A DNA stretch of 40,933 bases from Gammaproteobacteria bacterium (GCA_017999615.1 JAGNLM010000016.1:1-40933), one strand, 5' to 3'. Shown: positions 2,642-40,881, numbered from the stretch's first letter. The notes: a model not told the origin generated them from the sequence alone. A program made the numbers and translations.

Positions 2642-4254
2642 GAAGGGCCGCCCTCGCCCTCGGGCTCGCGTTCTGGCTCTCGAGCCCCCTCGCGGCGGGG
2701 ATCCCCGCGACGCCCCTGATGACGCTCTACCGGTTCAACGCGCCGGTCGACGTGCCCTTCTACGACGTGGACGGCTTCCGCAAGGGGGAGCCCTCTTCTC
2801 CGGCCGGCACGCTGGCCCAGGGGACCTCCGTGGTCCCCTGCCTCGTGGTCCGCGACGGGCGTCCCCTGACCGACCGCCGGGGGATCCCCTACGTGGGTTT
2901 TCGCGTGGTCGTCGACTCCCGCACCGCCACGCCCGAGGCCACGGAGACGTTCCGCCGGGTCGCGGCCGAGCGGCGCGCCATGACCGTGCCCCACCATCAC
3001 TGCGACGCCGGGGTGCGCCACGTGCTCGACGTGCGCAATCTCTATCCCATGGGCAAGGCGCCCCTCTTCGACACCCCGCCACCCGGCTGGAAGGGCGGGG
3101 GCCGGGACGGCTCGGCGCCCCAGGCCGGGGCGGGGGCCTGCCAGGGCCGGGGCTGCGAGCGGTGGGAGGGGGAGCGCCGAGAGCTCGACCAGATCATCCG
3201 CGCGTTCCACGATTCGCCCCGCTGCGAGGAGGCGAACCGCGCCCTGCTGGGCCGGGGCGAGGCGCTGGGCCGGGCGTGGGACCGGTTCGCGGCCGACCAG
3301 GGGCAGCGCTGGCCGCGGGCGACGCTCGAGCGTGCGGAGCAGCTCGACCACGTCATGCGGACCGCGCTCTTCGAGGGCCACCTGGACCGCGGCTGCAGCG
3401 CGTACGGCGCCTGCGAGCGAAACGTCATCGCGCTCTCCATCCGCAACCGCGCAGTGGAGTCCTGCTACGCGCGCCAGGGCTGCCGCTTCCCCGGCGACTT
3501 CCAGGGGGTCGCGACCGCGCCTTCCCAGTACAACATCTGGGACGAGCTCCTCTCCCAGATCTCTGGCCTCACCTCCTGCTATCTGCGCCCGGACCCCGCT
3601 CCCCGGGCCGAGGGGACACCGGGCAAGGAGGAGAACGGACTGCCCCTGCGGGAGCGCCTCCGGCGCATGCACGAGCAGAGCTTCGGAGACGTGGTCCGCA
3701 TCCTCCTCGGCGGGGACGACGACCTGCAGGAGGTCTTCCCGGGCGCCACGCTCGGCGACCTGAAGGGGCTGCGCCACTACTACCACGCGCCGGCCATGGG
3801 CAAGTGCTTCCCAGGCCACCCCCGGGTCGAGTACGTGACCGGCGCGGTGGCGGCGAAGGGGGACACCTTCGCGCTCATCGCCAACAGCCGGGTCCACGTG
3901 GACGAGCGCGTCGAGGGCGGGTATCGCTTCCGCGAGGCCGTGGTGCGCGAAGAGGGCGGGCGCGACGTGGTGGAGGTCCTGGACCGCTACCCCGGCTTCG
4001 TCCTGGACGAGCAGCGGGTGACGCTGGCCGCCGCCTCCCGCTGCGCACCCTACGGCATCCCCAACGGGTGCCCGCTGGAGGAGGTGGGGCGCTACCGCAA
4101 GACACCGCCCTGGCTGACCTCCGGCCGCCCCATCGAGGTCACCTGCCGGATCCGGGACACCGGAGAACAGTGCAGGGACCGGGGCACGCTGCGCAACGCG
4201 AAGGTAGGCGGCACCTGCGACCTGGAGATGAGGCCGGTCACCGGCGTTCACTAG
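2638..4254 (+). CDS. Exported cysteine-rich protein of unknown function
   Basis: This 538-residue protein begins with a good signal peptide (residues 1-20, MRRAALALGLAFWLSSPLAA), so it should be periplasmic or secreted. I do not recognise a family. The mature part has roughly 16 cysteines, many in short pairs (CQGRGC, CSAYGAC, CYARQGC), which suggests several disulfide bonds or metal sites; a HHHC cluster lies near residue 121. The first third contains a small beta-rich module with repeated polar strands (residues 25-110). The ATG is chosen because it overlaps the trxC stop as ATGA and directly precedes the signal sequence; the open frame continues upstream of it only as an artefact. It converges with the ABC operon 21 bases downstream. 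Confidence 0.72.
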   Translation: MRRAALALGLAFWLSSPLAAGIPATPLMTLYRFNAPVDVPFYDVDGFRKGEPSSPAGTLAQGTSVVPCLVVRDGRPLTDRRGIPYVGFRVVVDSRTATPEATETFRRVAAERRAMTVPHHHCDAGVRHVLDVRNLYPMGKAPLFDTPPPGWKGGGRDGSAPQAGAGACQGRGCERWEGERRELDQIIRAFHDSPRCEEANRALLGRGEALGRAWDRFAADQGQRWPRATLERAEQLDHVMRTALFEGHLDRGCSAYGACERNVIALSIRNRAVESCYARQGCRFPGDFQGVATAPSQYNIWDELLSQISGLTSCYLRPDPAPRAEGTPGKEENGLPLRERLRRMHEQSFGDVVRILLGGDDDLQEVFPGATLGDLKGLRHYYHAPAMGKCFPGHPRVEYVTGAVAAKGDTFALIANSRVHVDERVEGGYRFREAVVREEGGRDVVEVLDRYPGFVLDEQRVTLAAASRCAPYGIPNGCPLEEVGRYRKTPPWLTSGRPIEVTCRIRDTGEQCRDRGTLRNAKVGGTCDLEMRPVTGVH

Positions 4255-4275
4255 GGCTGCAGCGCGGCCCCCCCG

Positions 4276-5439
4276 TCAGCCCCCCCGCAGGGCCTCCACC
4301 AGCGGCATGCGGGCGGCGCGCAGCGCCGGCAGGAGGCCGCCGAGGAGTCCCATGACCAGCGCGAAGGCCAGGGCCTGACCGGCCACCCCGGGGGTGAAGA
4401 CGAAGCGGAACGCCAGCTCGGAGAAGGTCTGGAAGTTGGTGGTGGAGACCCTCACCCACTGCAGGAGCGCCGCCGCGCCGAGCCCTGCCGCACCCCCCGC
4501 CAGACCGAGCATCAGGGACTCCGAGAGAAAGGCCAGCAGCACGGCCGCACGCCCGAAGCCGAGCGCCCGCAGGGTCCCGATCTCGCCGGTGCGCCCCGCC
4601 ACCGCCGCGTACATCGTCACCATCGCCCCGACCGTCGCCCCGAGCGAGAAGATGACGGTGAGCGAGAGCCCGAGCACGCGCAGGAAGGTCGCCAGCATCT
4701 CCGACTGGCTCCGGTAGTAGGCCGGTTCGCGCCAGAGGTCTAGGGTGAGCCGCGGGTCCGCCTCGAGCCGCCTCTTGAGCTGGGGAAACGCCGCCGGGTC
4801 TTCCAGACGCATCAGGACTGCGGAGTACACCGGCCGGCGGAAGGCCTGCATCAGGGTGTCCACGTCGCCCCAGACCTCGGAGGCGAAACCCGTGTTCCCG
4901 GCGTCGAAGATCCCCGTCACGGTCCAGTCCCGCCCCGCGAACCGCATGCGCTCGCCGACGGCGACGCCCTCGTACTGGCGCGCGATGGCCTCGCCCACGA
5001 CGACCTCGTCCGTGCCGGGCCGATGCAGGCGCCCGGCCGTGACGCGCACCCCGGGGCGTAGCGCGAGCGAGGCCGGTCCGATGCCGCGGACCACCACGTT
5101 GGTGCGGGCGCCGCTCTGCTTGGGGAGGACCACGAGCACCACGAGCTCCCGCGCCACCAGCCGCTCCCCCGTCATGCCGAAGGCGGCCTCCGGCTGGCCC
5201 TCGACGATGGCCACCTGTTCGCGGTCGAGCGCGCTCTGGACCTCGGTCTCCGAGGAGCGGCGGAGCGCAATCGCGTTGTCCGGCGAGCCCGTGTCCACCA
5301 GCGTGCGCTCGAGCCCCTCGGCCAGCATCAGCACGGCGGCGAACACGAACACCACGAGGGCCATGCCGCCGGCCGTCAGCAGCGTGGTGCCCCGGCGGGC
5401 GGCGAGGTTGCGCAGGCTGTAGAAGAGGAGCAATTCCAC
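4276..5439 (-). CDS. ABC transporter permease, FtsX/MacB type (second permease of the operon)
   Basis: A 387-residue inner-membrane protein with the MacB/LolC/FtsX layout: one N-terminal helix (residues 18-42, RGTTLLTAGGMALVVFVFAA), a periplasmic domain of about 200 residues, then three C-terminal helices starting near residue 258 with the FtsX core (FSLGATVGAMVTMYAAVAGRT, GEIGTLRALGF). The coupling motif RTGEIGTLRALGFGR is the usual contact with the ATPase. Its start lies three bases after the stop of the first permease, so they are cotranscribed and probably form a heterodimer. Together with the ATPase and membrane-fusion protein this is a MacAB-like, mechanotransmission-type exporter. The substrate is not evident. 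Confidence 0.9.
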   Translation of the reverse strand: MELLLFYSLRNLAARRGTTLLTAGGMALVVFVFAAVLMLAEGLERTLVDTGSPDNAIALRRSSETEVQSALDREQVAIVEGQPEAAFGMTGERLVARELVVLVVLPKQSGARTNVVVRGIGPASLALRPGVRVTAGRLHRPGTDEVVVGEAIARQYEGVAVGERMRFAGRDWTVTGIFDAGNTGFASEVWGDVDTLMQAFRRPVYSAVLMRLEDPAAFPQLKRRLEADPRLTLDLWREPAYYRSQSEMLATFLRVLGLSLTVIFSLGATVGAMVTMYAAVAGRTGEIGTLRALGFGRAAVLLAFLSESLMLGLAGGAAGLGAAALLQWVRVSTTNFQTFSELAFRFVFTPGVAGQALAFALVMGLLGGLLPALRAARMPLVEALRGG

Positions 5440-5442
5440 GCC

Positions 5443-6597
5443 CTACCCCACCCGCCCGAGGGCCTCGGCGATGCCCACGCGCACGGCCTGGCGCGCCGGG
5501 AGCGCGGCTGCGGCGAGCCCCACCAGGACCGCAGTCCCCAGGGCTTCGAGAACCGTGCGCGGTTCGACCGCGAAGTTCGGGAAGAGGCCGCCCACCATCG
5601 CCGCGAACCGCCCCGTGACCGGGAAGGCGAGCGCCAACCCGAGCACCCCGCCGACCAGTGTGATCAGCACCGACTCGCCCAGGATCGACAGCGCGATCCG
5701 GCCGGCCCCGAAGCCGAGCGTCTTCAGCACCGCGTACTCCGAGAGCCGCTCGCGCACCGACATCGCCATGGTGTTGCCGACGACCGCGAGGAGCGTGGCG
5801 ATGACCACGAGCGCCACCACCCGGGTCGCCACCAGGATGGTCTCGCTCATGGCGACGAATCCGAGCAGGAAGGCCTGCTCGCTCTCGGTCAGCGTCTCGG
5901 CGGCGGAGCTCGCGAACAGGGAGTCGATGGCTACCGAGGCGGCAGCCGCCCCCTCGGGGCGGGCGAGGCCGATGACGTAGATGCCGACCTGATCGACGCG
6001 GCCGGGGTCCGTCTTGCGCAGCGTCTCGTTCAGGTATTCCCAGTGGAACAGGAGCAGGGTCTCGTCGGTGTTGCGGTCGCGGCCCCGGTACACCCCGCGG
6101 ACAGTGACCGGCCAGTCGCCCGGGAAGACGGTGCCCTTCAGCGGGACGGTGTCGCCCACCTTCCAACCGAAGCGCTCGGAGAGCTTGCGCCCCACGATGG
6201 CGCCCCTGCGGTCGCGGAGGAACGCGGCGCGCTCCTCCTCGGACAGACGGTACTCGGGGTACAGTGCCAGGTAGCTCGCCGGCTCCATCGCCAGGTTCAC
6301 GAAGAAGTTCTTGGGGTCCTGGTAGTAGCCGCCGAACCAGCTGCCGTAGGAGACGGAGGCGACGCCGTCGACCTGGCGGATGCGGTCGCGGTAATGGATG
6401 GGGAGCGGGAACAGCAGGGAGATGGCATTGCGCGTGACCAGGCGGTTGGCGGACGAAGCCGCCACGCCCGAGTACCAGGCGTCGACGACGGTCTGCAGGA
6501 GCACGAAGGCCAGGATCGCCACCGCCGTCCCCGCGACCGTCAGCACGGTGCGCAGCCGATGCCGGGCGGCGTTACGCAGAAGGATCTTCAGGAGCAT
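5443..6597 (-). CDS. ABC transporter permease, FtsX/MacB type (first permease of the operon)
   Basis: This 384-residue permease is homologous in layout to the next gene: N-terminal helix at residues 17-40, a large periplasmic domain (about residues 45-250), and three C-terminal helices with the sequence ERLSEYAVLKTLGFG preceding the second one. It would sit in the inner membrane beside its downstream partner. The ATG at 6597 overlaps the end of the ATPase gene by 26 bases, indicating translational coupling. FtsX-type permeases move substrates from the periplasmic side using ATP hydrolysis in the cytoplasm (family knowledge). Two different permeases instead of one MacB fusion suggests a LolCDE-like or DevBCA-like complex; the exact class is undecided. 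Confidence 0.9.
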   Translation of the reverse strand: MLLKILLRNAARHRLRTVLTVAGTAVAILAFVLLQTVVDAWYSGVAASSANRLVTRNAISLLFPLPIHYRDRIRQVDGVASVSYGSWFGGYYQDPKNFFVNLAMEPASYLALYPEYRLSEEERAAFLRDRRGAIVGRKLSERFGWKVGDTVPLKGTVFPGDWPVTVRGVYRGRDRNTDETLLLFHWEYLNETLRKTDPGRVDQVGIYVIGLARPEGAAAASVAIDSLFASSAAETLTESEQAFLLGFVAMSETILVATRVVALVVIATLLAVVGNTMAMSVRERLSEYAVLKTLGFGAGRIALSILGESVLITLVGGVLGLALAFPVTGRFAAMVGGLFPNFAVEPRTVLEALGTAVLVGLAAAALPARQAVRVGIAEALGRVG

Positions 6598-7270
6598 CGC
6601 TCAGGACGCCCTTGTCGAGGTACTGCACCTTGCGCGCCCGGCGCCCGGCCCGCGGGTCGTGGGTGACCATCACGACGGTCTTCCCGAGCTCCGCGTTCAG
6701 GCGCGTGAGGAGGTCGAGGACCTCGCCCGCCGAGACCCGGTCCAGGTCTCCGGTCGGCTCGTCGGCGACCACGAGCAGGGGGTCGACCACGAGCGCGCGC
6801 GCGATGGCGACCCGCTGCTGCTGGCCGCCGGAGAGCTGGCGGGGGTAGTGGTCCGTGCGGTCGTCCAGCCCCACCAGGTGGAGCGCGAGCGCGGCGTGCT
6901 CGCGCCGCTCGCGGCGGGAGAGCGGGGCGAGCAGCAGGGGCAGTTCGACGTTCTCCAGCGCGCTCAGGACCGGAATCAGGTGGTAGAACTGGAACACGAA
7001 GCCGACGTGCTCGGCGCGCCAGCGGGCGAGCTCGCTCTCGCCAAGGCGAGTGATGTCGACCCCGCCCACGCGGAGGGTCCCGGCGTCAGGTTGGTCGAGC
7101 CCCGCCACCAGGTTGAGGAGCGTGCTCTTGCCCGACCCCGAGGGGCCCATGAGGGCCAGGAACTCGCCCGCGGGGATGTCCAGGTCGATTCCCGCGAGGA
7201 CCGGCACCCGCTGCCCTCCCCGGCGGTAGGACTTGCTGACGCCGCGCAGCTCCACGAGGGGCGCGGTCAC
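6572..7270 (-). CDS. ABC transporter ATP-binding protein, LolD/MacB type
   Basis: A 232-residue ATPase with all catalytic motifs: Walker A GPSGSGKST, the signature LSGGQQQRVAIARAL, Walker B VVADEPTGDLD and a switch histidine in VMVTHDPRAG. It powers the two permeases encoded immediately downstream. The start was set at the GTG at 7270 (VTAPLVELRGVSKSY) because that gives a standard N-terminus for this family; the frame stays open upstream, but that part is composition-driven and overlaps the membrane-fusion gene. The 67-base gap to the upstream gene and the 26-base overlap with the downstream gene support a single operon. Confidence 0.93.
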   Translation of the reverse strand: MTAPLVELRGVSKSYRRGGQRVPVLAGIDLDIPAGEFLALMGPSGSGKSTLLNLVAGLDQPDAGTLRVGGVDITRLGESELARWRAEHVGFVFQFYHLIPVLSALENVELPLLLAPLSRRERREHAALALHLVGLDDRTDHYPRQLSGGQQQRVAIARALVVDPLLVVADEPTGDLDRVSAGEVLDLLTRLNAELGKTVVMVTHDPRAGRRARKVQYLDKGVLSDAPEDPSA

Positions 7271-7337
7271 GGCGAGACGCCCGCCAGGGTCCTGCCCCGG
7301 CGCACCGCGGGACGCCGCTCGCGGCGCGCCGGCGGCC

Positions 7338-8608
7338 TCAAGGCGAGCCGTCCGCCGGGCGCACGCGCGCGCCATCGGCAAGCGCGGGCGGCGCCAGCAC
7401 GACCGCGTCGCCCACCGCGAGGCCCGCGTCAACCTCCCGCAGGTCCCCGAGCGCCCGCCCGAGCCGGACCGGCGTGGAGACGGCACGGCCCTCGCGCACG
7501 ACGAAGACCCGGGCCTCGCCCTCCCCACCCTCCTCCCCCAGCACGGCCGACTGGGGCACCGCGGTCAACCGCTGGCGCTCGTCCTCGCGCACCTCGCGCT
7601 CGAGGAAGGAGACCTTGGCGCTCATCTCGGGCAACACCCGCAGGTCCCGCTCCACGAAGGCCGCCTTGACCAGCACGGTCGCCTTGCTGCGGTCCGCGGT
7701 GGGGACCACCGCGTGGACGCGGCAGCGCAGACGGGCGTCGGGGAGGGCGTCGAGCTGGACCTCACAAGGTTGGCCCACCGCGACCCGGCCGATGCTGGAC
7801 TCCGCCACGTCGACCTCCACCTGGATGGAGGCGGGGTCCGCGATGGTCACCACGGAGGCCCGGGCGTTCGCCGACGCCCCGAGGGGGGTGACGATGTCGC
7901 CCACGTCGGCGTTCTTGGTGAGCACCACGCCGTCGAAGGGAGCGCGGATGGCGGAGTACTCGAGCTGCACCTCGGACTCGCGCAGCGCCGCCGCCTGGCT
8001 CGCGAGGCTCGCCCTGCGGGTCTGCACGGCGGCCTCGGCGACCTTGTAGCGGGCCTCGGCGACATCGAATTCGGAGCGCGACACGAACTTGCGCTCCAGG
8101 AGCTCGCGGGTTCGCTGGAACGCGAGGCTCGCTTCCTCGCGCTCGGCCTCGGCCTGGGCGAGGTCGGCCCGGGCCACGTCCACACCCGTGCGGGCGCGGT
8201 CCCGCGCGGCGGCGAGGTCGGCGTTCTCCAGCCTGGCCACCAACTGCCCCGCGCTCACCCGGCTGCCCTCCTCCACCGTCAGCTCCACGAGCCGGCTCGT
8301 GATCTTGGCGCCAAGGGCCGCCTTGCGCTGGGGCACCACGTAGCCGCTGGCGGTCAGCACGGTGAAGGTCTGGGTCGGCCACACGGCGCTCACCCGCGCC
8401 AGCCGGACCTCGACCGCCGGGCGCAGGAGCCCCGGGCCGTAGACGAAACCGGCGCCGGCAAGCGCAAGCGCCAGCGCCAGCGCCAGGAACAGGGCGAAGA
8501 CCACACCCCGCCTTCGCCGCCGGCCCGCCCCTGGCAGGCGGCGGTCGATGCGCAGCCCCGTCAGGGGAGGTGGCGCGGCCGCTTCGCGGGGGGCGTTGCG
8601 GTGTCCAT
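7338..8608 (-). CDS. HlyD/MacA-like membrane-fusion protein (apparent frameshift near the 5' end)
   Basis: Periplasmic adaptor of the ABC exporter. After one transmembrane helix (ALFLALALALALAGAGFVYG) come a biotinyl-lipoyl half (VPQRKAALGAKITSRLVEL), a long coiled coil rich in A/R/E (ARDRARTGVDVARADLAQAE), a second lipoyl half (RAPFDGVVLTKNADVGDIV) and a beta-barrel. The first canonical start in the main frame is GTG 8504, directly before the helix. However, the in-frame codons upstream encode LTGLRIDRRLPGAGRRRRRG, a typical basic cytoplasmic leader for this family, with no ATG/GTG. A good ATG at 8608, 3 bases after the upstream gene's stop, is one frame off. Adding one base in the six-G run (8588-8593, plus strand) would join them. 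Confidence 0.85.
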
Positions 8609-8610
8609 CC

Positions 8611-10023
8611 TCAGGGGGAGTTCCTGCCGGGCGCAGAAACCCTGCGCAGCGTGATCAGGGGGACCTCCCCCGGGCAGTGGAAACGCACCGGCACCCCCGA
8701 CGCCCCCGCGCCCCGGCTCGTGTAGCCCAGCATGCCGTGGTACTCCCAGGGGCCGGCGGCGGTGAAGCGGGGGGCGTGGCTGTGGGTGAAGAGCGGCCCG
8801 ACCCGCGGCAGGCAGATCTGCCCCCCGTGGGTGTGCCCGCAGAGATAGAGGCGCGCCCCGTGGCCGGCGGCCTCCCGGTAGACCTCCGGGGAGTGGGCGA
8901 GGAACAGGGTGAAGGCGTTCCCGGGCACCTTGCGAAACGCCAGCGGCAGGTCATGGCAGCGATAGTAGTGCGGGTCGTCGACCCCCACCAGCCAGAGCGC
9001 GTCGCCGGCACGCCGGAGCTCCCGCGCCTCGTTCACGAGCATCGTCACGCCGGCGGCCTCGAACTCGGGCAGCATCTCGATGCAGTCGTGGTTCCCCAGC
9101 ACCCCGAAGACCCCGTCCCGGGCGCGCACGTGGCCGAGCAGCTGGCGCAGGTGGCGTAGCGCCGGCGCCATCGGCCCGTACATCTCCATGCGCACGTCCC
9201 CCCCCACCAGGCAGAGGTCGACCTCGCACCCCTCGACCTGCTCGATCAGGACCTCGGTGAGCGCTGGCAGGCCGTCCAGGTGCAGGTCGGTGAGCAGCAG
9301 GACGCGGTAGCCCTCGAACGCCCCCGGCAGGTCGGGAAACTCCAGGTCCACCGGGCGGACTCTCACGGCGAGGACGTTCGCGACCCCTCGCTCGTACCAG
9401 CCGAGCAGGCGAAAGGCCCGGGCCATGACGACCCGGTAGTAGACGTAGCTCTCGAAGTTGAGCCAGGTCTGCCACCGGGCGAGCGGGGCGTGGCAGGCAC
9501 GCCACTCCCGCAGGCGGGTCGTCGCCCGGACGATGCGGGGGTAGCCGGCGCCGGGCGGACGGTACAGCACGTAGTGCCAGAAGGCGGACCCTGCGAAGGA
9601 GACGGGGACGAAGAGGGCGAGCGCGAGCAGGGCCTGCCAGGGAGCGAGCTCGAGCGAGGGGTAGAGGACAGCGAGGGGCAGCGCCCCCTCGAGGAACTGG
9701 TCGAGACCCGCGCGGGGCAGACCGCTGGAATACTTCAGACGGCGCTTGAGGTAACTGGTCGCCAGATCCCCGGCCATCGCGGCGAGGCCGGCGGCCGAGC
9801 CGGCGGCGGCGCCCACACCCAGCAGTGGGCCGGCCAGGGCACCCGCCGCGACACCGGCCACGACACCGCGGGCGGTCTTGTGGGGTCCGAGGAGCGGCTG
9901 CCCGTCCCACGCCGTGGCACCCCCGTCGAGGGGCCGCCCGAAACGCTGCCCCAGCACCAAACGGGCCAGGAACGGCGTGAAGTTGACCCAGAGGAGGAAC
10001 AGCACCACAGCGACGACGCCCAC
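8611..10023 (-). CDS. Fusion of a CarS-like membrane domain and a calcineurin-like metallophosphoesterase
   Basis: This 470-residue protein has two parts. Residues 1-155 are a multi-helix membrane domain with CDP-archaeol synthase (CarS/DUF46) motifs: NFTPFLA, RPLDGG, LGPHKTARG (45-53), GDLATSYLKRR (85-95) and LDQF (107-110). That family transfers CMP to unsaturated ether-linked lipids. Residues 238-440 are a metallophosphoesterase with D246-L-H248, GGD (274-276), GNHD (310-313), H377 and GHTHGGQ (396-402), close to YkuE/YaeI-type enzymes. The start GTG 10023 is preferred over GTG 10077 because GGAGG lies 7 bases ahead of it. It is first in the ABC exporter operon. A role in lipid-head-group or lipid-carrier chemistry is inference. 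Confidence 0.82.
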   Translation of the reverse strand: MGVVAVVLFLLWVNFTPFLARLVLGQRFGRPLDGGATAWDGQPLLGPHKTARGVVAGVAAGALAGPLLGVGAAAGSAAGLAAMAGDLATSYLKRRLKYSSGLPRAGLDQFLEGALPLAVLYPSLELAPWQALLALALFVPVSFAGSAFWHYVLYRPPGAGYPRIVRATTRLREWRACHAPLARWQTWLNFESYVYYRVVMARAFRLLGWYERGVANVLAVRVRPVDLEFPDLPGAFEGYRVLLLTDLHLDGLPALTEVLIEQVEGCEVDLCLVGGDVRMEMYGPMAPALRHLRQLLGHVRARDGVFGVLGNHDCIEMLPEFEAAGVTMLVNEARELRRAGDALWLVGVDDPHYYRCHDLPLAFRKVPGNAFTLFLAHSPEVYREAAGHGARLYLCGHTHGGQICLPRVGPLFTHSHAPRFTAAGPWEYHGMLGYTSRGAGASGVPVRFHCPGEVPLITLRRVSAPGRNSP

Positions 10024-30853: not shown

Positions 30854-33613
30854 TCACGCCAGCTCCCCGAACCAACCCCGCCGCACCGCCCACTTGGCGA
30901 CCTCGAGCAACGGCACGACCGACAGCGCGAGCGCACCCACGATCATCCAGTCGAGAGCCGTGAGGGAGTAGGTCGAGAAGGGTTCCTGCAGGACCGGCAG
31001 GTAAACCACCAGGGCGAGGAGGCCCATCTCCCACGCCACCGCCAGGTTGAGCCAGCGGTTGGCGAGCGGGCGGCGCAGCACGGAGTGCCGGTCCGAGCGG
31101 AAGCTGTACGCCTTGAAGAACTGGATCAGCACGAGCGAGACGAAGGTCATCGTCATCGCCTCCTCGACGCCGCGCCCCGATTGCAAAGCCCAGGCGAAGA
31201 GCCCGATGTTGGCGAGCGTCGACCAGACACCGCCGGCCACCATCAGGGCGACGACCGGACGGGTGAACAGCCCCGCCTGGGGGTCACGGGGACGGCGCCG
31301 CATCAGGTCCTCGGCCGGGGGGTCCACGGCGAGGGCGAGCGCGGGGAGGCCGTCGGTGGCCAGGTTGACGTAGAGGACCTGCACGGCGGTGAGGGGAAGC
31401 GGCAGTCCCACCAGGACGGCGCCGGCCATGAGCCCCACCTCGCCGATGTTCGAGGACAGCAGGTACATCAGATACTTCTTGATGTTCTCGACGATCCCCC
31501 GCCCCTCTTCCACCGCCGCGACGATGGAGGCGAAGTTGTCGTCGGTCAGGGTCATCGCGGCGGCTTCCCGGCTCACGTCCGTGCCGGTCAGGCCCATGGC
31601 CACCCCGATGTCGGCGCGCTTGAGGGCCGGGGCATCGTTGACACCGTCGCCGGTCATCGCGACCCGGTGGCCCCGGGACTGCAGGGCGGTCACCACGCGC
31701 AGCTTGTGCGCCGGGGACACCCTCGCGTAGACGTCGATCCCCTCCACCTCACGGGCCAAGTCCTCGTCGCTCATGGCGTCGAGGTCGGCCCCCGAGACGA
31801 CCCGGCCGCCCTGGAGAAGGCCCAGCTCCCGGGCGATGGCGCGGGCGGTGACCGGGTGATCTCCCGTGATCATGACCACCTTGATGCCAGCACGGCGGCA
31901 GGTCTCGATGGTGTCCCGCGCCTCGGCGCGCGGCGGGTCGCTCATCCCCACCAGGCCGAGGAAGGTCATGCCCGTTTCGGCGTCCGCACGGCCCGCCCCC
32001 TGCTTGCGGGCCACGGCAAGCACGCGGAGCGCCTCGTCCGCCATCTGCCGCGCGGCGGCCAGGACCCGCTCCCGCCCCGCGGCGTCCAGGGGGACCTCGC
32101 CCGAGGCCGTGAGGACACGGGAGCACTCCGCGAGCACCACCTCCGGGGCGCCCTTCGAATGGGCCACGACCCCCTCGGGGGTCTCACTGAGCACCGTCAT
32201 CCGCTTGCGCTCGGAGGTGAAGGGGACCTCGTCGGCACGCGGGTTCTCCCGCTCCAGGGCGAGGTGGTCGAGGCGAGCCTTGACGGCGGCGACGATCAGC
32301 GCACCCTCCGTGGGGTCGCCGCGCACGTGCCAGCGGCCCTCGGCGGAGCGCGCGAGGCGGGCGTCGCAGGAAAGGGCCGCCGCCTGCAGCAGCGCCTGCA
32401 GCGGCGCGCTCGCGGTGGCGTCAATGGCGGAGGGGTCGGTCTCCCCTCCCCCGGCGCGCGGGCGGAATTCCCCCTCCGGCTCGTAGCCCGAGCCGGTCAC
32501 CTGGAGGTCCAGATCGGCCACCAGGATCCGCCGCACCGTCATCTCGTCCCGGGTCAGGGTTCCGGTCTTGTCGGAGCAGATGACCGAGGTGCTGCCCAGG
32601 GTCTCGACTGCCGGCAGCCGGCGGACCAGCGCGTGCCGCTGGACCATCCGCCGCACCCCGAGGGCCAGGGAGATGGTGACGACCGCGGGGAGGGCCTCCG
32701 GGACGACGGCCACGGCGAGCGCCACGCCGAAGATGAACATCTCCACCAGGGGTTGGCCGCGCAGGAGGCCGAGCGCGACGACCAGGGCGACGACCACGAG
32801 GGCGGCCTTGGCAAGCGAGCGCCCGGCCCCGTCGAGTCCTTCCTGCAGGGGCGTGCGGCGCACCTCCACCCCCTCGATCATCCCCGCGATGTGGCCGACC
32901 TCCGTCGCGGGGCCGGTCGCGACCACCACGCCAGCGCCTCGCCCGTAGGTGACGGCCGTGCCGGCGAAGGCCATGTTCCGGCGGTCCCCGAGGGCGGCCT
33001 CCTCGGGAAGCGCGGCGGTCTCCTTCTCCACCGGCAGCGACTCTCCGGTGAGCGCGGCCTCCTCGGCCTGCAGATTGACCGCCTCGAAGAGCCGCAGGTC
33101 CGCGGGGACCCGGTCACCGGATGCGAGCAAGACGACGTCGCCCGGCACGAGGTCCCGCGCCGGCACCTCCACCTCCTCCCCTGCGCGCAGGGCGCTCGCC
33201 ATCGGCGCCGCCATGCGCTGGAGCGCCTCGAGCGCCCGCTCCGCCCGGTACTCCTGGATGAAGCCCAGGAGGACCGCGAACAGGACGATCACGGTGATGG
33301 CGACCGCCTCCGTGGTGTGCCCGAGCGCTGCCGAGATGGCGGTGGCCACCAGCAGGATGACGATCAGGACGTTCTGGAACTGCCCGAGCAGCAGGGCCCA
33401 GGGGCTCACCCGGCGGGGCGGCGCCAGCTCGTTGGGCCCCCCCGACGCGAGTCTGCGGGCCGCCTCCGCGGAATCGAGCCCTCGCTCCAGGGACGTGCCG
33501 AGAGACGCCACCACCTCGGCGAGGCCGAGGGCGTGGGGAGCGCCTGCGAGGATGGGGGTAGGCCCAACGCGGGACGGGCTCACCCCGGGAGAAGCGTCGG
33601 ATTTCTCGTGCAT
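30854..33613 (-). CDS. Cation-transporting P-type ATPase, calcium (P2A) type
   Basis: A 919-residue inner-membrane pump. Domains in order: N-terminal cation-ATPase domain (about 25-95, LDSAEAARRLASGGPNEL), M1-M2, actuator with LTGESLPVEK, M3-M4 with VVPEALPAVVT, the phosphorylation motif SDKTGTLTRDE, a nucleotide domain (SKGAPEVVL), MVTGDH-type segment (VMITGDHPVTA), hinge TGDGVNDAPALKRADIG, and M5-M10 with VLYVNLATDGLPALALAVDP. PEALP in M4 and NLATDG in M6 fit Ca2+ or Mn2+ pumps of the PMR1/SERCA branch. ATP drives export of the cation from the cytoplasm. GGAGGGAA lies before the ATG. It has its own transcription unit after the RND terminator. Confidence 0.93.
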   Translation of the reverse strand: MHEKSDASPGVSPSRVGPTPILAGAPHALGLAEVVASLGTSLERGLDSAEAARRLASGGPNELAPPRRVSPWALLLGQFQNVLIVILLVATAISAALGHTTEAVAITVIVLFAVLLGFIQEYRAERALEALQRMAAPMASALRAGEEVEVPARDLVPGDVVLLASGDRVPADLRLFEAVNLQAEEAALTGESLPVEKETAALPEEAALGDRRNMAFAGTAVTYGRGAGVVVATGPATEVGHIAGMIEGVEVRRTPLQEGLDGAGRSLAKAALVVVALVVALGLLRGQPLVEMFIFGVALAVAVVPEALPAVVTISLALGVRRMVQRHALVRRLPAVETLGSTSVICSDKTGTLTRDEMTVRRILVADLDLQVTGSGYEPEGEFRPRAGGGETDPSAIDATASAPLQALLQAAALSCDARLARSAEGRWHVRGDPTEGALIVAAVKARLDHLALERENPRADEVPFTSERKRMTVLSETPEGVVAHSKGAPEVVLAECSRVLTASGEVPLDAAGRERVLAAARQMADEALRVLAVARKQGAGRADAETGMTFLGLVGMSDPPRAEARDTIETCRRAGIKVVMITGDHPVTARAIARELGLLQGGRVVSGADLDAMSDEDLAREVEGIDVYARVSPAHKLRVVTALQSRGHRVAMTGDGVNDAPALKRADIGVAMGLTGTDVSREAAAMTLTDDNFASIVAAVEEGRGIVENIKKYLMYLLSSNIGEVGLMAGAVLVGLPLPLTAVQVLYVNLATDGLPALALAVDPPAEDLMRRRPRDPQAGLFTRPVVALMVAGGVWSTLANIGLFAWALQSGRGVEEAMTMTFVSLVLIQFFKAYSFRSDRHSVLRRPLANRWLNLAVAWEMGLLALVVYLPVLQEPFSTYSLTALDWMIVGALALSVVPLLEVAKWAVRRGWFGELA

Positions 33614-33753
33614 CGGATTCCCTCCAGAACGGACGCGGGCGCCGCAGGGGCCGGAGACGCGAACAGCCTCGTGAGGCCGGCGGACCGGCCTGCCCCGACC
33701 GGGTCGCTGCGAGGGAGAGTGTATCGCGGAGCCGGCGGCAGCCCCCAGAGACG

Positions 33754-33779
33754 CGGACGCCGGCTCACGCCGGCGTCCG
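33754..33779. terminator. Hairpin ending the RND transport operon
   Basis: CGGACGCCGGC (33754-33764) pairs perfectly with GCCGGCGTCCG (33769-33779) around TCAC. On the minus strand it follows the RND stop codon by about 20 bases and precedes the P-type ATPase gene. No T-run follows on the minus strand. Confidence 0.65.
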
Positions 33780-33800
33780 TTCCCTACCTGCAGTGGTTGC

Positions 33801-36500
33801 CTACGGCTCGAAGACGTACTTCGGCTTGAACCACTTGACCAGCAGCGGCAGCACCGTGAGCGCCGTGATGACGTCGATGACGAGCGCCTGGGCGATGTAC
33901 ACGCCGAGCCCCCAGGTGTTCGCGAGGTCGGTGGCCAGCAGTGGGATGAAGCTGCCGAGCAGGACCACGACCGACCCGATCACCGCCGACCCTGTGGTGT
34001 CCAGGGTGTTGCGCAGCGACCTGGCCCAATCCCTGCCCGTCGCCAGCATCTCCTCCCGTAGCCGCGACACCATGTAGATGCCGTAGTCGACCCCGAGGCC
34101 GATGGAGATGCTGAGGGTGACGATGAGGTGGAACGCGAGGTTCCCGGACCAGTTCTCCACCGCCGTGAAGTACCCCCCCAGCCCGTACTGCGCGAAGAGG
34201 GTCACGAACAGCAGCCCGATCAGCATCGCCGCGATGGGCAGCGACCGGAACATCAGCCACGCCACGATGAACACCGCTCCGGCGGTCTGCAACGGGCTCT
34301 CGAGCCAGATGTCCATGGCCACGTTGCGGGTTGCCTCGGTGGCACCGAGGAATCCGCCGACCCCCGGCCGCACGTAGTTGGGGCCCTCCACCGACAGCTC
34401 GTTGGTGTCCCCGGAGGTGTCGGAATTCCGGAAGCCGAAGTTCACCTGCTTGAAGCCGGCGTCGTTCTTGTGCTCCTCGATGTACTGCTCGATCTCCATG
34501 GTCACCTGGTGGGTCTCACGCGGGTCCATCGTATTGATGAAGCCCATCACGAGCCCCTGGTTCCAGTCCCGGGCCACGAACGAGTCCATGTCCCCCGAGC
34601 TGGTCATCGTCTCCAGCAGACCGTTGTACAACTGCACCATGTCGTCCGGGTCCCGGTCGTCGTTGGGGTCCACGGACTTCAGGAACGCCTTGGTGGGAAT
34701 GTGGAAGAACTTCAGCTCCGGCTTCTCGCCCGGCTCCGCGGTCAGCAGCATGTTCACCAGCTTGATGTACTGCGTGTAGGAGCCGGTGAAGCCGATGAAC
34801 GGGTGAGCGCGCATCCAGTCCTCGAGCTTCTCGACGTCCGCGAGGACCTCTGCGTTGTTGAAGATCCCTTGCGCCCCCATCGTGTCCGGGTCGTGGCAGC
34901 CCTTCGGCAGTGCGTCGGCGTCACACTCCGGCTTGAGGGGCTCCTTGCCCCGGATCGGGATGGTGACGGAGATGACACCAGGCATGACCTGATTCAGGCG
35001 CAACAGCTGCTGGATGGTCTCGGACTGCTTCTTGAAGGCCGCTCGCGAGTAGTCGATGCCCCTCTCCACGCCAGGCATCAAGTCCTCCCGGGTGCCGTCC
35101 AGGATCCGGGTGTAGTACCCCGACCAGACCATCAACCCCACGACCAGCACGATGGGCACCCACCGGGCCGGCCCCATCACGACGCGCTCGAGGAAGCCCC
35201 CGACGCGCGCCTCCCAGGCGTGCCCACCCTCCTTGGCCGCCTCCTGGGAGCAAGGGAACACCAGCATCAGCAGCGGGATGAGCGTCGTCGTCGTGATCAG
35301 GAGCGACAGCATCCCGAACATGCCGAAATAGGCGTAGTCCTTGTAGAAGGACACGTCCACCGTCGCCAACGTAGCGAAGCCCGCGGCGTCCGTCACGATG
35401 GACAGCGTCGCCGGGATGATGGTCGTCCCGATGGCCCTCTTCGCGGCCCTGTCGCACACGGGCGTAGCGGCCCGCTCCTGCATGAAGCGCCGCGTCACCT
35501 GGACCGAGTGGCCGATGCCGATGGCGAGCAGCAGCATCGGCGTGAGCACCATCATCGTGGTCAGCTTGAATTGAGAGAGCCCCATCAGCCCGAGCGTCCA
35601 GACGATGGTCGCGCCCACTCCCAGCAGCGGGAACACCGCCCCCCGCCAGTTCTGGAACTCGAGCCACAACACCGCAATGACGATGGCGATCGAGATGACG
35701 AAGAGCCACCACTTGTTCACGAGGTCCGCGAGCATCCACGCGAGGAAGTACGGCTCGCCGGCCACGAGGAGCTCGCCCCCGACCGCCTTCAGCCGCGGGT
35801 CCTCGCTGTACCGGTCCATGATCGCCCGCACCTGGCGAACCCACGGCAGGTAGATCTCCTTCACGCCGTCGTCGTAGTCGGCGATGACGAACGTGCCCTT
35901 CGCGGTGCACTTCTTGACCTCACGCTCCTCGTAGGTGCAGCGCTTGCCCTGGGGGTCCTCGAAATAGAGCAGCATCGGCCCCATGACGGGGTTCTCTTCG
36001 AGGCCCACCTTGAGGAACTCCAGCTGCTCCTTGGCCGCGGCCGGGTCGGTCGTGCTGATGCCGGACGTGGGAATGAGCCGTTTGAACACGAGCCCGTTCT
36101 CGTCGGCGCCCATGTACTTCACCTTCTGCGCCGCGAGATTGATGAAGTTGGCTACCCGCGAGTTCGGGAGGGCCACGAGCTCCCGGTGGAGCTCCTGAAC
36201 CAGGTTGACGATCCCCTCCTGGTACACGTCGCCTTTCTTGACGATGATCCCGAACACCATCAGGTTGCCCATGCCGAACTTTTGCTCGCCATAGGCGTTG
36301 GTCGCAACGTAGTGGTTTCCTGCCGGCAGCAGGGTGTCGGGGTCGTTGCGGATGTCCAGGTCCTTCACGTAGTAGCCGAGGAACGCGGTGACGGCGGCCA
36401 CGAACAGGATGACCAGCCAGCGCATCTTCACCACCCAGTGCGCGTATTTCTCCGGGAGCGTCTCGTCTCTTTCGGGTGCGTCGTCTTTCGCGGAGCTCAT
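33801..36500 (-). CDS. RND/MMPL-family inner-membrane transporter
   Basis: An 899-residue protein with the HpnN/MMPL layout: TM1 (residues 27-46), a large periplasmic loop (about 47-260), five helices with a sterol-sensing-like domain (about 265-420: WWLFVISIAIVIAVLWLEF, IGIGHSVQVTRRFM), TM7 near 450, a second periplasmic loop, and a final five-helix block (SIGLGVDYGIYMVSRLREEM). Proton-driven pumps of this group export lipids or hydrophobic compounds. It is the last gene of an operon with a LolA-like protein and a DUF1302 outer-membrane protein, a combination seen in other gammaproteobacteria. The substrate is not known from sequence. Cysteines CTYEEREVKKC and CDADALPKGC suggest loop disulfides in the periplasm. 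Confidence 0.88.
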   Translation of the reverse strand: MSSAKDDAPERDETLPEKYAHWVVKMRWLVILFVAAVTAFLGYYVKDLDIRNDPDTLLPAGNHYVATNAYGEQKFGMGNLMVFGIIVKKGDVYQEGIVNLVQELHRELVALPNSRVANFINLAAQKVKYMGADENGLVFKRLIPTSGISTTDPAAAKEQLEFLKVGLEENPVMGPMLLYFEDPQGKRCTYEEREVKKCTAKGTFVIADYDDGVKEIYLPWVRQVRAIMDRYSEDPRLKAVGGELLVAGEPYFLAWMLADLVNKWWLFVISIAIVIAVLWLEFQNWRGAVFPLLGVGATIVWTLGLMGLSQFKLTTMMVLTPMLLLAIGIGHSVQVTRRFMQERAATPVCDRAAKRAIGTTIIPATLSIVTDAAGFATLATVDVSFYKDYAYFGMFGMLSLLITTTTLIPLLMLVFPCSQEAAKEGGHAWEARVGGFLERVVMGPARWVPIVLVVGLMVWSGYYTRILDGTREDLMPGVERGIDYSRAAFKKQSETIQQLLRLNQVMPGVISVTIPIRGKEPLKPECDADALPKGCHDPDTMGAQGIFNNAEVLADVEKLEDWMRAHPFIGFTGSYTQYIKLVNMLLTAEPGEKPELKFFHIPTKAFLKSVDPNDDRDPDDMVQLYNGLLETMTSSGDMDSFVARDWNQGLVMGFINTMDPRETHQVTMEIEQYIEEHKNDAGFKQVNFGFRNSDTSGDTNELSVEGPNYVRPGVGGFLGATEATRNVAMDIWLESPLQTAGAVFIVAWLMFRSLPIAAMLIGLLFVTLFAQYGLGGYFTAVENWSGNLAFHLIVTLSISIGLGVDYGIYMVSRLREEMLATGRDWARSLRNTLDTTGSAVIGSVVVLLGSFIPLLATDLANTWGLGVYIAQALVIDVITALTVLPLLVKWFKPKYVFEP

Positions 36501-36601
36501 GGGATTACCCTTGTAGGAACGGACCGAGGCGTCGTGCGCGCGAGACGTCCGTGTCCCGCGCGGGCAGGGCTCCTCTCAGTACCCTGCCATCCCTCCACCA
36601 C

Positions 36602-38793
36602 TCAGTCGAAGAGGTACTTCAGGCCGATCTGGACGCTCGAGGAGTCCTTGAACTGCCCGAACATCGAGTCACGGTCGCCCCAGTAGGTGTTCCACTCGGC
36701 CGTGCCGAGCAGCTTGTCCGTGAAGGAGTACTCCACGTCGAGCCGGTTCCACCACCCACCACCCTCCTCGTAGATGGTGATGTTGTTCCAGCGGTGCTCC
36801 TGGGAGTCGCCAAAGGGCTTGGAGAAGAACAGCGAGTAGAACTCCTTGTTCTTCCGCGCCTTCGCCATCCCGTTGGTCAAGTTCATCGTCGGGAAGTCAC
36901 CGGTGTAGCGCGAGCAGTTGAACTGGAGACCGGTCTGCGTCGTGCAGGTCCCCTTGTCGTCCACGTAGTCCATGTTGCGGAACTGGATGAACTGACCGCT
37001 GATCATCATGTTGGTCAGTACCGTGATGTCCGCGCCGAGGACGTACTTGAAGATGTCGGCGTCCTCCATCTTCAGGCCGCTGGCCACGTCGCCGATCCCG
37101 AGGAGAAGCCGGTCGACCACGGGCTGCTTCGTGTCCTTCTGGTACAGGAACTCGCCCCGGAACACGATCGCACCCAGGAAATCGGTGTCCATCGCGTAGT
37201 CGAAGGACCCACCGATGTTGTGGACGCGATTCAGCTTTTCGGTGAAGCGCAGCTCAACGGGATTGCTGTTGTAGGCCCCCGCCATTCCGAAGGTGGGGTC
37301 GGCCGCACCGTAGTACTGCCCGCCAGCATTGTGAAGGAGGATGCTCGTCGGGTTGGCGGTGGGACTTGCCAGATTCGTCTCCACCTCCGAACGGCTCCGG
37401 TCGGTGGACGGGTTGGGGACGTAGACCGTCTGTCCCCCCATCGTCACCGGCATCGAGGCAGCCCGCTGAACCGCGAGCTTCTCGCCCGTCGTCGCATCGT
37501 GCCAGCTCATCTTGATGTACGGGTTCGGGTCGTAGTTGTAGAGGTAGTTGACGGAGTAACCGAACCCAGCATCGGTGGTGCTCTTCCAACGGAAACCGAC
37601 GTTGGGGTTGCCGTCACTGGGGTAGTCTCGCTCGTAGACCGACCTGGCACTGCTGCCGTTAAAACCAACGCCTGAGAAACTGTTGAATGTCGCAAACGTC
37701 GCATTCGGCATCATCTCGAACGCCGACGTGGGTTTGCTGTTCGGCCGCCAGACGGTGTCGGCAAAACCCGTTCCCGTCAGCGGCATCAGGTTGGTCTCGT
37801 AGTTGTTGGCGTTTGGATCGACACCGCAGCCCATCAGGCCGCACTGGGCGATGTTGTTCAACAGCATGTAACCGGGCGCCGCGAAGGCCGGGTTATAAGC
37901 GGGATTCGACGGGTCGAGAATCTGGCCTGGGGCGCTCGCAGCGTCCCACGTACCCCTGGCAAAGCCGTCGACGGTCAGGCCGGCGAAGGGCAGCAGGCCA
38001 CCAGGATTGGCTGCGCCGCCCGTGAAGGCGCCGCCCATCGCAGCGTTGGTAAAGCTCTGTGCGGTGCCGCCGAGGGTGGGCACGATACGGAGGAACCCGT
38101 TCACCGGCCCGGTGATGGCGTCGACCCCCTTCATGATGAAGGCCTCGCCGTGGTTGTCCTGGGGGTCCAGGCCCGGGATCTTGTTCTCCTCGGACTCGGA
38201 GAGGAGGAACTGCAGGCTGCTGCGGTCGGAGACGTTCTTTTCCGCCTTCAGCATCCAGACCGGGATGCGCGAGTCCTCCATGGTGTTCTGACTGAACTCG
38301 CGGTAGTCCGTGGGGTTGATGATGTCGAGGAGCTTGATGCCGTCCGCGGTGCCCCACACCACCTGCTGCTTGCCGAGGCGGAACTGCCAGTCGGCCAGCT
38401 TCGTGTCGACGTAGAGCTCGCGCAGCCAGTCCTGCTGGCTGTAGAGGTGGTGCCCCTTGTAGTTGCGGTCCAGGTTCCCCGTGGACTCGTAGATGAGCTG
38501 CAGGTCCGCCGTCCAGCTCGTCTGTTCGCCGATCGGACCGGTCAGGAACATGCGTGCCGAGTTCTCGAACTTCAGTACGTCTCCCGCATCGGAGTCGGCG
38601 TCGTCGAGCATCGTCCGCGCGAGCCCGGTCGGATGTCCGTGGTGGGTGAAGACTGCGGTCTCGTTCTTCAGGTAGCCACTGACCGAGACCTGGTCGAGGT
38701 AGCTTTCGTCGCTCTCGGCGGCAACCGCGACACACGGCAGCGCCAGTGCCAGGGCGACCGCCTGGCATACCGCAGAACGCTTGAACCTCCCAC
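36602..38793 (-). CDS. DUF1302 outer-membrane protein (5' end unclear, possible frameshift)
   Basis: About 730 residues, rich in amphipathic beta strands and ending in FD with an alternating pattern (SSVQIGLKYLFD), as for outer-membrane barrels. The DUF1302 family features are SVSGYLKNETAVF, LYVDTKLADWQFRLGKQQVVWGTADGIKLLDIINPTDYREF and RIPVWMLKAEKN. The main frame contains an evident signal peptide (KRSAVCQAVALALALPCVAVAA, split here by position 38779-38720) upstream of the first canonical start, ATG 38611, but no ATG, GTG or TTG begins it. GTG 38793, after a purine-rich site (seven Gs), is one frame off; one extra G in GTGGGAGG would give MGRFKRS. Predicted role: outer-membrane channel of the RND system. 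Confidence 0.82.
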
Positions 38794-38812
38794 TCCCCCC
38801 CTCGTGGATAAA

Positions 38813-38848
38813 CCCCGGGAGGCAGGGCCGAAGGCCCCCGTCCCGGGG
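38813..38848. terminator. Intercistronic hairpin between the LolA-like and DUF1302 genes
   Basis: On the minus strand CCCCGGGA (38848-38841) pairs with TCCCGGGG (38820-38813), with an inner GGGCC-TTC-GGCCC stem. TTTAT follows. It may attenuate transcription or protect the upstream message so that the LolA-like protein is made in excess over the barrel. Confidence 0.55.
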
Positions 38849-38881
38849 TGCGTTTGCCTCGGCGTACGGACCGAGTTTCTT

Positions 38882-39823
38882 CTAGCGCTTGATCTTCTCG
38901 AGCGTCGTCTCGCTCCAGAAGTTCGGATCCATCTCCCGGTTGAACTTCACAACGCTCGCCGGGATGACGGCCCAGGTCTCGTGGCCCGTGTTCAGGTCCT
39001 TGCCGTACCAGTAGTCCCACTTCTGGGCGCGGGGGTCACTCTGCTTCAGGCTGCTCCAGGCCCGGTCGATGATCTTCGTCATCTTGCCGTCTTTGAAGTA
39101 CTCGGTGCGGTAGTCCGCGAAGGTCTTCGTGTCGATGTAGCTGACGCGCTCGTCGTAGTACCAGTTCTTGAACTTGGTCTTGCTCTTCACCTTGTAGACT
39201 TCCTTGCCCTTCACGTCGCAGGCGGGCTTCGGAAGGTTCTGCATGTACTTGTTCTTCTCGCTGTCCTGCAGCTCCATGACCTTCAGGCAGTCCTTGAAGG
39301 TCTCCTTACCCATCAGCTCGTGGGTCTCGTGGAAGGGCTTGCGCAGGTACACGTCCTCGAAGGTGAAGTCCGTGCCGCCCCAGGCGTCGTCGAAGGCGGG
39401 CTCGGCGAAGCGGCGGATCTTGCGCAGGGCCGGCAGCCAGATCGAATAGGACTGGCTCTTGGAGTCGTCCACGTAGTCGACGATCAGCATTCCGGTGCCG
39501 TTCAGCTTGCCCGAGCGGAAGATGGCGATGTCCTTCGCCTTGGTGCTGCCGTCGCTGTAGTTGTTGTTCAGGTGCCGCTCCACGGTATTCGTGGTCGGCG
39601 CCTCGCCGGCGGACTTGTTGACCAACACCGTGATGGTGTCACCGTCCTCGACGATGGAGTAGTTCTTCAGCGCGTAGAAGTGATTGACGAAGTACACCTG
39701 CTCGATGATCTGGTCCGCGCTCGGTGCGCCCTTGGGCAGCGGCAGGTCCGTCGGGACCCCTGCGAGGGCCGGTGTGGCCGTGAGGGCCGACAGGGCCACT
39801 AGGCCCAGCTTGCGTAGCATCAT
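38882..39823 (-). CDS. LolA-like outer-membrane lipoprotein-sorting-type protein
   Basis: A 313-residue periplasmic protein. Signal peptide at residues 1-22 (LVALSALTATPALA). The mature part matches the LolA-like family PF17131: DYVDDSKSQSYSIWLPALRKIRRF, FEDVYLRKPFHETHELMG, and a late strand region with FKNWYYDERVSYIDTKTFADYR. LolA/LolB-fold proteins bind acyl chains in a half-barrel, so this one could ferry a lipid between the RND pump and the DUF1302 barrel. Lysine use (AAG) is notable in this GC-rich setting. The ATG at 39823 is chosen over a TTG at 39838 because GGGAGAG precedes it. Confidence 0.87.
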   Translation of the reverse strand: MMLRKLGLVALSALTATPALAGVPTDLPLPKGAPSADQIIEQVYFVNHFYALKNYSIVEDGDTITVLVNKSAGEAPTTNTVERHLNNNYSDGSTKAKDIAIFRSGKLNGTGMLIVDYVDDSKSQSYSIWLPALRKIRRFAEPAFDDAWGGTDFTFEDVYLRKPFHETHELMGKETFKDCLKVMELQDSEKNKYMQNLPKPACDVKGKEVYKVKSKTKFKNWYYDERVSYIDTKTFADYRTEYFKDGKMTKIIDRAWSSLKQSDPRAQKWDYWYGKDLNTGHETWAVIPASVVKFNREMDPNFWSETTLEKIKR

Positions 39824-39915
39824 GGTTCTCTCTCCCAACTCGTGATCGTGGGGGCGAGGACGCTGGGCCCGTCATTGACAGTCGGGGACGTTTGTGGCCC
39901 GGGATCCGCCCCCCG

Positions 39916-39944
39916 GCTATAGGAACGCCGCACCCGGGAGACAA
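39916..39944 (-). promoter_or_regulatory. Candidate sigma-70 promoter of the envelope transport operon
   Basis: On the minus strand TTGTCT (39944-39939), a 17-base spacer and TATAGC (39921-39916). It would give a leader of about 85 bases before ATG 39823. Confidence 0.5.
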
Positions 39945-39979
39945 CGATTTTGTGAAAGGATTGATCGAACCAACTGAAT

Positions 39980-40008
39980 TACATATGTATCTGCGAAAGA
40001 ATATTCTT
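39980..40008. promoter_or_regulatory. Paired palindromes upstream of the transport operon promoter
   Basis: TACATATGTA (39980-39989) and AAGAATATTCTT (39997-40008) are perfect palindromes with centres 18 bases apart, about two helical turns, in AT-rich DNA 36 bases or more upstream of the -35 element. The position and spacing suit an activator binding site. The regulator is unknown. Confidence 0.45.
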
Positions 40009-40094
40009 ATATGCCGTTATATCCCGAAGAACGCGGACACGGGGGCAGCGGGGGTGCCGCAACGCGGGGGGGCGCGCAGGAAGCTGACGGTGAG

Positions 40095-40130
40095 CTCCAT
40101 CGCCGCGGCGCGACGCGCGCGGCGATGGAG
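40095..40130. terminator. Hairpin after dsrE2
   Basis: CTCCATCGCCGCG (40095-40107) pairs perfectly with CGCGGCGATGGAG (40118-40130), loop of 10 bases, five bases beyond the dsrE2 stop on the minus strand. No T-run. Confidence 0.6.
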
Positions 40131-40135
40131 TGACG

Positions 40136-40618
40136 CTACATGTACAGGCAGATGTCGGACTCGCCGGCGAAGTCCAGGAAGCTCGCGGCGCCGCCGAACT
40201 CGACGCCATCGATAAGGTCCTTCGGGTCCACGTCCAGGAGGTCGAGGGTCATCTGGCACGCAATCATCTTGACGCCGGACTCGACGCAGAGGTCCCGCAG
40301 CTCCTCGAGACTCGCCACACCCTTGCTCCGCAGCCTGCGCTTCAGGAGGGCCGTGAACAGGGTCTCCATGCCCGGCAGCGCCGCGGCGACGACCGGAAAC
40401 CAGCGGTGCATGCCGAAGGGCAGCCGCAGGGCCGGATTGCCAAGCGGGGAGACCTTCAGGCCGAGGTCGCGGCGCAGCAACTGCAGGCCATGGAACATGA
40501 AGAAGATCCGGGCCTCGTAGCCTAGGGCCACGGCCGTGGAGGCAAGGATGAACGGGGGGTAGGCCGAGTCGAGGGTCCCCTGCGACGCGATGATGGCCAG
40601 CTTCTTCGCGTGCGGCAT
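40136..40618 (-). CDS. dsrE2: DsrE2-like sulfur carrier/transferase partner protein
   Basis: A 160-residue protein of the DsrE/DsrF-like superfamily. It begins with KKLAIIASQGTLDSAYPPFILASTAVALG, a Rossmann-like start, and carries the conserved cysteine in VKMIACQMTLDLL (C121), with C111 and C156 also present. A hydrophobic central segment (FPVVAAALPGMETLFTALL) is typical of DsrE2, which can associate with the membrane. In sulfur oxidisers DsrE2 is encoded with TusA and often a rhodanese and helps move sulfane sulfur toward Dsr or sHdr oxidation. Here it follows tusA by 32 bases. Whether it is DsrE2A or DsrE2B needs an alignment. Confidence 0.85.
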   Translation of the reverse strand: MPHAKKLAIIASQGTLDSAYPPFILASTAVALGYEARIFFMFHGLQLLRRDLGLKVSPLGNPALRLPFGMHRWFPVVAAALPGMETLFTALLKRRLRSKGVASLEELRDLCVESGVKMIACQMTLDLLDVDPKDLIDGVEFGGAASFLDFAGESDICLYM

Positions 40619-40650: not shown

Positions 40651-40881
40651 TCAGGCCTTCTTGAGCAGGAATATGAACTTGCCTTCCTCCACGCCAGACT
40701 CGAGCAGGGGATTCCCGGTCTGCTTGGCGAAGGCCTCGAAGTCCTTGACCGACCCGGGGTCGGTCGCGACCACGCGCAGCACGCGGCCGCTCTGCAGGGT
40801 CGATAACGCCTTCTTGGCGCGCAGGACCGGTAGGGGGCAGTTGAGCCCCGAGGCGTCGAGCTCCTGGTCGAAAACGGCCAT
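40651..40881 (-). CDS. tusA: TusA-family sulfur carrier
   Basis: A 76-residue cytoplasmic protein with the family motif C15-P-L-P in LDASGLNCPLPVLRAKKAL; C15 holds the persulfide. The later part (VLRVVATDPGSVKDFEAF and GKFIFLLKK) fits the two-layer alpha/beta fold. TusA relays sulfur for tRNA thiolation, molybdopterin synthesis or, next to dsrE2, for oxidative sulfur metabolism. AGGAGA precedes the ATG. Only 52 bases of upstream sequence remain in the window, so a preceding rhodanese gene cannot be ruled in or out. Confidence 0.93.
   Translation of the reverse strand: MAVFDQELDASGLNCPLPVLRAKKALSTLQSGRVLRVVATDPGSVKDFEAFAKQTGNPLLESGVEEGKFIFLLKKA

Follow-up and report, generated by a model that had tools for sequence, protein, structure and literature searches.

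The 40,933-nucleotide stretch of DNA from a Gammaproteobacteria bacterium analyzed here (GCA_017999615.1 JAGNLM010000016.1:1-40933; "the window") carries an operon of three genes encoding a periplasmic LolA-fold carrier, an outer membrane β-barrel, and an inner membrane RND/MMPL pump. We read this operon as a dedicated three-part envelope transport system of sulfur oxidizers whose cargo may be zero-valent sulfur or a hydrophobic sulfane carrier, and we give this reading a probability of about 0.45. The operon runs along the minus strand, in the order carrier (38882..39823), barrel (36602..38788), and pump (33801..36500), separated by 93 bp between carrier and barrel and by 101 bp between barrel and pump. 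The original prediction of three genes in one direction, with each layer of the envelope represented once, is therefore upheld, with one protein per layer. A candidate promoter had also been proposed, and this part was not recovered, as a consensus scan of both strands from 33500 to 40200 gave no sigma-70-like site; the sequence 5' of the carrier gene shows no conservation in a near relative (locus L064), the carrier of which is 96% identical. The proposed final hairpin is present as a GC-rich fold with an 11-bp stem 3' of the pump gene (33754..33779, minus strand), which is also kept in L064, but it lacks a T-run and was not called as a terminator. A gene for a calcium-type P-type ATPase (30854-33613, same strand) lies downstream of the operon and adjoins it in L064 too. 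Elsewhere in the window (4276-8504, minus strand), a membrane-fusion protein, an ABC ATPase, and two LolC/E-like permeases form a separate ABC export set. In addition, the same genome contains a second set with a LolA_like protein (171 bits) and a DUF1302 barrel (L005, positions 3514-9427; G000 contig C1, 106000-122000), which also includes two FtsX/MacB-like permeases and an ABC ATPase and resembles an ABC-powered version of the RND operon.

The carrier is a protein of 313 amino acids with an N-terminal hydrophobic leader. It passes the Pfam LolA_like model PF17131 (59.8 bits; cutoff, 30) and matches this family, not DUF1329. Its AlphaFold model (pLDDT 89) adopts a LolA fold, in agreement with the LolA-like protein originally predicted. 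The best structural match of this model is LolA3 of Porphyromonas gingivalis (9tp6; Z 26.0, 235 residues, 23% identity), and the DUF1329 protein 4z48 (Z 23.4) and a Vibrio protein (Z 23.1) also match, while the classical LolA of Escherichia coli (1iwl) scores well below these top matches (Z 10.9). A side branch of outer membrane lipoprotein or barrel assembly would suit the modeled LolA fold, and the flanks of several gammaproteobacterial loci, read by eye, resemble hemA and ispE, the region in which E. coli lolB is also found. However, such a role is improbable: the pump is an RND protein and not LolCDE, the distribution of the operon is narrow and tied to sulfur oxidizers, and LolA3, the closest solved relative of the carrier, interacts only very weakly with LolB and has an unsettled function (PMC13103446). 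Cys179 and Cys202 of the carrier are conserved in the clade, with the pair found in 88 of 91 homologs, and are missing from distant carriers. Two tandem carrier genes precede the barrel gene in 11 loci, mostly from Sedimenticola (L068, L071, L072, L074, L078, L079, L093, L101, L105, L107, and L125). Solitary carrier paralogs that are about 50% identical and have neither barrel nor pump beside them occur at L048:9200-10162 and L049:5277-6206, in genomes that also hold the full operon.

The outer membrane protein had been assigned to the DUF1302 barrels, which stands as homology through relatives and profiles but not as a family match of the window protein itself, which is below the Pfam cutoff and gives no PF06980 match even at an E value of 0.1. 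PF06980 is matched by 7 of 44 close barrel homologs (best E value, 2.6e-18), and a profile comparison covering the length of the protein relates it to DUF1302-type barrels (hhalign probability 100; E value, 1e-39), one of which is a copy in the window's own genome that scores above the DUF1302 cutoff. The AlphaFold model of the barrel (pLDDT 83) matches OprD-family porins over about 300 residues (Z 22), and the protein is accordingly modeled as an OprD-like porin fold and a remote DUF1302 homolog. Foldseek and VIA matches show general porin similarity from which no substrate can be read, and the sequence search for solved relatives returned none. Compared with other DUF1302-type barrels, the protein has about 180 additional residues (roughly 205-385), located between strands 7 and 8. 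The barrel also has a Cys pair, which is less constant, its members being found in 73% and 82% of homologs. The start of the barrel lies upstream of 38611, at about 38788, where the window has AGG (38786-38788) and L064 has ATG; the AGG could reflect either an error in sequencing or a genuine loss of the usual start codon.

The pump comprises 899 amino acids and passes the MMPL model PF03176 (92.7 bits; cutoff, 20.5). In the hydropathy plot, its hydrophobic segments fall into two groups with two long loops dividing them. The HAE3 model TIGR00921 is its best NCBIfam match, yet the score is below the cutoff (105.5 versus 351.9 bits), and the score against the BstA sterol transporter model is likewise below the cutoff (27.9 bits versus 1400). 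Hopanoid transport of the HpnN kind would draw on the common RND superfamily and on a weak HpnN match, which reaches 58.9 bits against a cutoff of 1100; we regard it as extremely unlikely, and hopanoid cargo is excluded in practice by the hopene cyclase search, in which 0 of 55 operon-bearing genomes had a match over the cutoff. Four cysteines of the pump (188, 198, 526, and 535) are invariant, as pairs, in 53 of 53 homologs. The pairs sit in insertions of two large periplasmic loops and are missing from eight distant pumps, and by sequence comparison they are specific to the sulfur-oxidizer clade. These conserved cysteines may form structural disulfides or handle sulfane sulfur. In a tubeworm (Escarpia) symbiont, the pump gene is broken into two reading frames (L103:12124-14969).

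The three families had been predicted to co-occur elsewhere, and the order carrier-barrel-pump does recur in relatives across genomes. In a class-wide draw of 229 genomes, the window's own included, four genomes besides the window's own have a close carrier and barrel adjacent, with the pump next. A scan of 84,980 species genomes yielded 103 carrier relatives, the best 80 of which were retrieved. Of these, 64 have 3.5 kb or more of sequence following the carrier, and 57 of the 64 have all three genes in the same order and direction. This recurrence, in both the class draw and the wider scan, indicates that the genes are more than chance neighbors. The seven remaining loci, read by eye, have unrelated genes after the barrel and no substitute pump. 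The pairwise distances of the three proteins correlate strongly (r 0.85-0.94; 0 of 2,000 permutations as high), as would result if the set had been inherited or transferred as a unit, although shared ancestry alone also gives high values. Clustering of the neighbors in the best 80 of the 103 loci gave no further constant partner beyond the three genes; the other neighbors in these 80 loci, judged by eye, are mostly antisense reading frames and housekeeping genes.

Distant versions, in which pump, LolA-like, and DUF1302-like genes stand in other orders, are present in many other genomes, which agrees with the literature on AmeABCD, Pseudomonas putida, and Thalassolituus. The original prediction that this association is known from other genomes is thus correct: the general kind, a LolA-type carrier with a DUF1302-type barrel and an RND pump, has been described (PMC6394551, PMC10866462, PMC6304351), and the sulfur-oxidizer clade is a variant of it. 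In Castellaniella defragrans, the AmeABCD cassette combines an HAE3-type RND protein, a DUF1302 outer membrane protein, and a LolA-superfamily periplasmic protein; it is tied to monoterpene metabolism, and its assignment as an exporter comes from a mutant phenotype (PMC6394551). It differs from the window operon in that its LolA-superfamily member belongs to DUF1329 instead of PF17131 and in that it includes a fourth protein, the periplasmic AmeC (PMC6394551); the window set, with three genes, a PF17131 carrier, and no fourth gene between them, is not an AmeABCD-type cassette. PP_0765/PP_0766 and PP_2018/PP_2019 of P. putida likewise include a DUF1302 barrel, a DUF1329 LolA-superfamily protein, and an efflux-type pump that are proposed to form one route, but they are split over two loci, are needed for growth on Tween 20, and have no sulfur link (PMC10866462). 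In Thalassolituus oleivorans, an MMPL pump with a LolA-like domain is encoded next to a predicted porin (TOL_3187/TOL_3188), but pump and LolA-like domain are fused, and the genes are induced on C28 alkane (PMC6304351). These relatives raise the alternative that the window operon takes up or expels hydrocarbons, terpenes, or fatty acid esters, as would fit the monoterpene tolerance raised by AmeABCD (PMC6394551), the Tween 20 requirement in P. putida (PMC10866462), and the C28 response in Thalassolituus (PMC6304351). We consider this unlikely, as the clade's pump is only about 20% identical to distant RND genes adjoining DUF1302-type barrels and has its own cysteine-bearing insertions, and the operon carriers are mostly chemolithotrophic lineages and symbionts.

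The link to sulfur begins with the genes directly upstream of the operon, which encode, on the same strand, a DsrE2 sulfur carrier protein (40136..40618, minus strand; NCBIfam NF047629, 262 bits; cutoff, 210) and a TusA-like sulfur-transfer protein (40651..40881, minus strand), the translation of which has TusA PRK00299 as its best match (E value, 1.3e-14), below the cutoff. The tusA-dsrE2 pair takes the same position in L044 (genome G134, same family), L100, and L126, the tusA-like copies of which are 79 to 82% identical to that of the window, and in these three loci a rhodanese gene precedes it. In G134, the operon comes after a complete dsr cluster, the run being dsrA, -B, -E, -F, -H, -C, -M, -K, -L, -O, -P, -N, and -R, rhodanese, tusA, dsrE2, carrier, barrel, and pump, in which key members were identified by family models and the others were named by order and by eye. 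Physical linkage to sulfur oxidation genes is found in four loci through tusA-dsrE2 and, in one of these four (L044 of G134), also through the dsr cluster. Among the best 80 of the 103 loci, the tusA-dsrE2 linkage was seen only in L100 and L126, which adds to its presence in the window and in G134; most other loci lack it, as does the near relative L064. A clade with cysteine-bearing loops and linkage to dsr or tusA-dsrE2 was not found in the literature searched.

The named carriers of the operon include Thiodiazotropha, Sedimenticola, tubeworm symbionts, Thiomargarita, Magnetococcales, Sulfurimonas, and Sulfurovum, which are sulfur-oxidizing lineages, and the operon spans the Gammaproteobacteria, the Magnetococcales, and the Campylobacterota. 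Sulfur oxidation markers were compared between 50 operon genomes, picked for diversity of their titles before any marker was run, and 224 operon-free genomes. FccB is above the cutoff in 42 of the 50 operon genomes and in 73 of the 224 operon-free genomes; the corresponding counts are 41 and 69 for DsrA and 39 and 90 for SoxB. At least one of the three markers is present in 50/50 operon genomes versus 114/224 operon-free genomes (Fisher's test, 4e-13), a value that assumes independent genomes, whereas the genomes here are related. The association is confounded by shared ancestry and habitat, a problem that the spread over three groups softens but does not remove. The window genome itself has two FccB matches and SoxB, and the dsrA search gave no match in it. 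In the class draw, only 5 of the 119 marker-positive genomes have the operon; since 114 of the 119 are without it, sulfur oxidation as such does not require the operon, which is an accessory part of it.

The distribution and the neighbors tie the clade to sulfur oxidation, and hopanoid synthesis is absent from the carriers, which leaves a membrane lipid unsupported as the simplest cargo. A related alternative is that sulfur oxidizers use the system to export or position a hydrophobic organic compound or a special lipid made or needed by them in sulfidic habitats, sulfur being the setting and not the cargo. In characterized systems, proteins of the LolA-fold and MMPL types act on acyl lipids and aryl polyenes, and the apeL-apeM genes of the E. 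coli aryl polyene system encode a LolA-like protein followed by an RND transporter (PMC8253772). The co-distribution with sulfur markers, moreover, is indirect. However, apeL-apeM is followed by a LolB-like protein in place of a DUF1302-type barrel and is surrounded by polyene synthesis genes (PMC8253772), whereas no lipid or polyene synthesis genes were recognized beside the window-type operon, where some genomes have tusA-dsrE2 and dsr, and hopene cyclase is missing. This alternative is the strongest of the rivals but less probable than the main reading, and we favor a cargo of zero-valent sulfur, or of a hydrophobic carrier of sulfane, over another hydrophobic compound used by sulfur oxidizers.

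With zero-valent sulfur (S8 or long polysulfanes) or a hydrophobic sulfane-sulfur carrier as the putative cargo, the proton-driven RND pump would load or unload it on the periplasmic side of the inner membrane, shielding across the periplasm would fall to the LolA-fold protein, and the OprD-like barrel would pass it through the outer membrane. Transport between the periplasm and the outside may thereby serve extracellular storage or mobilization for oxidation. The cargo may move in either direction, export being in keeping with the usual activity of RND pumps. A role of OprD-like porins in S0 uptake has been suggested but not proven for Sulfurovum (PMC10045233); this suggestion fits the barrel fold, yet it is no evidence for the window protein. 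As a more tentative extension, the proton-driven pump, a LolA-fold sulfur chaperone, and the OprD-like barrel might constitute the hitherto missing path of zero-valent sulfur across the envelope of many sulfur oxidizers, with the cysteine pairs of the clade possibly handling sulfane.

A literature search combining LolA, RND, and sulfur gave no publication describing this operon, and a 2023 study states that, in acidophilic and neutrophilic sulfur oxidizers alike, no membrane protein for S0 transport had been confirmed by experiment (PMC10045233). For the unsolved passage of insoluble elemental sulfur across the outer membrane, the operon offers a concrete, testable three-protein candidate, found in symbionts of lucinid clams and tubeworms, relatives of Thiomargarita, magnetococci, and vent Campylobacterota. 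Whatever its cargo, the operon marks a conserved, uncharacterized transport system tied to sulfur oxidation.
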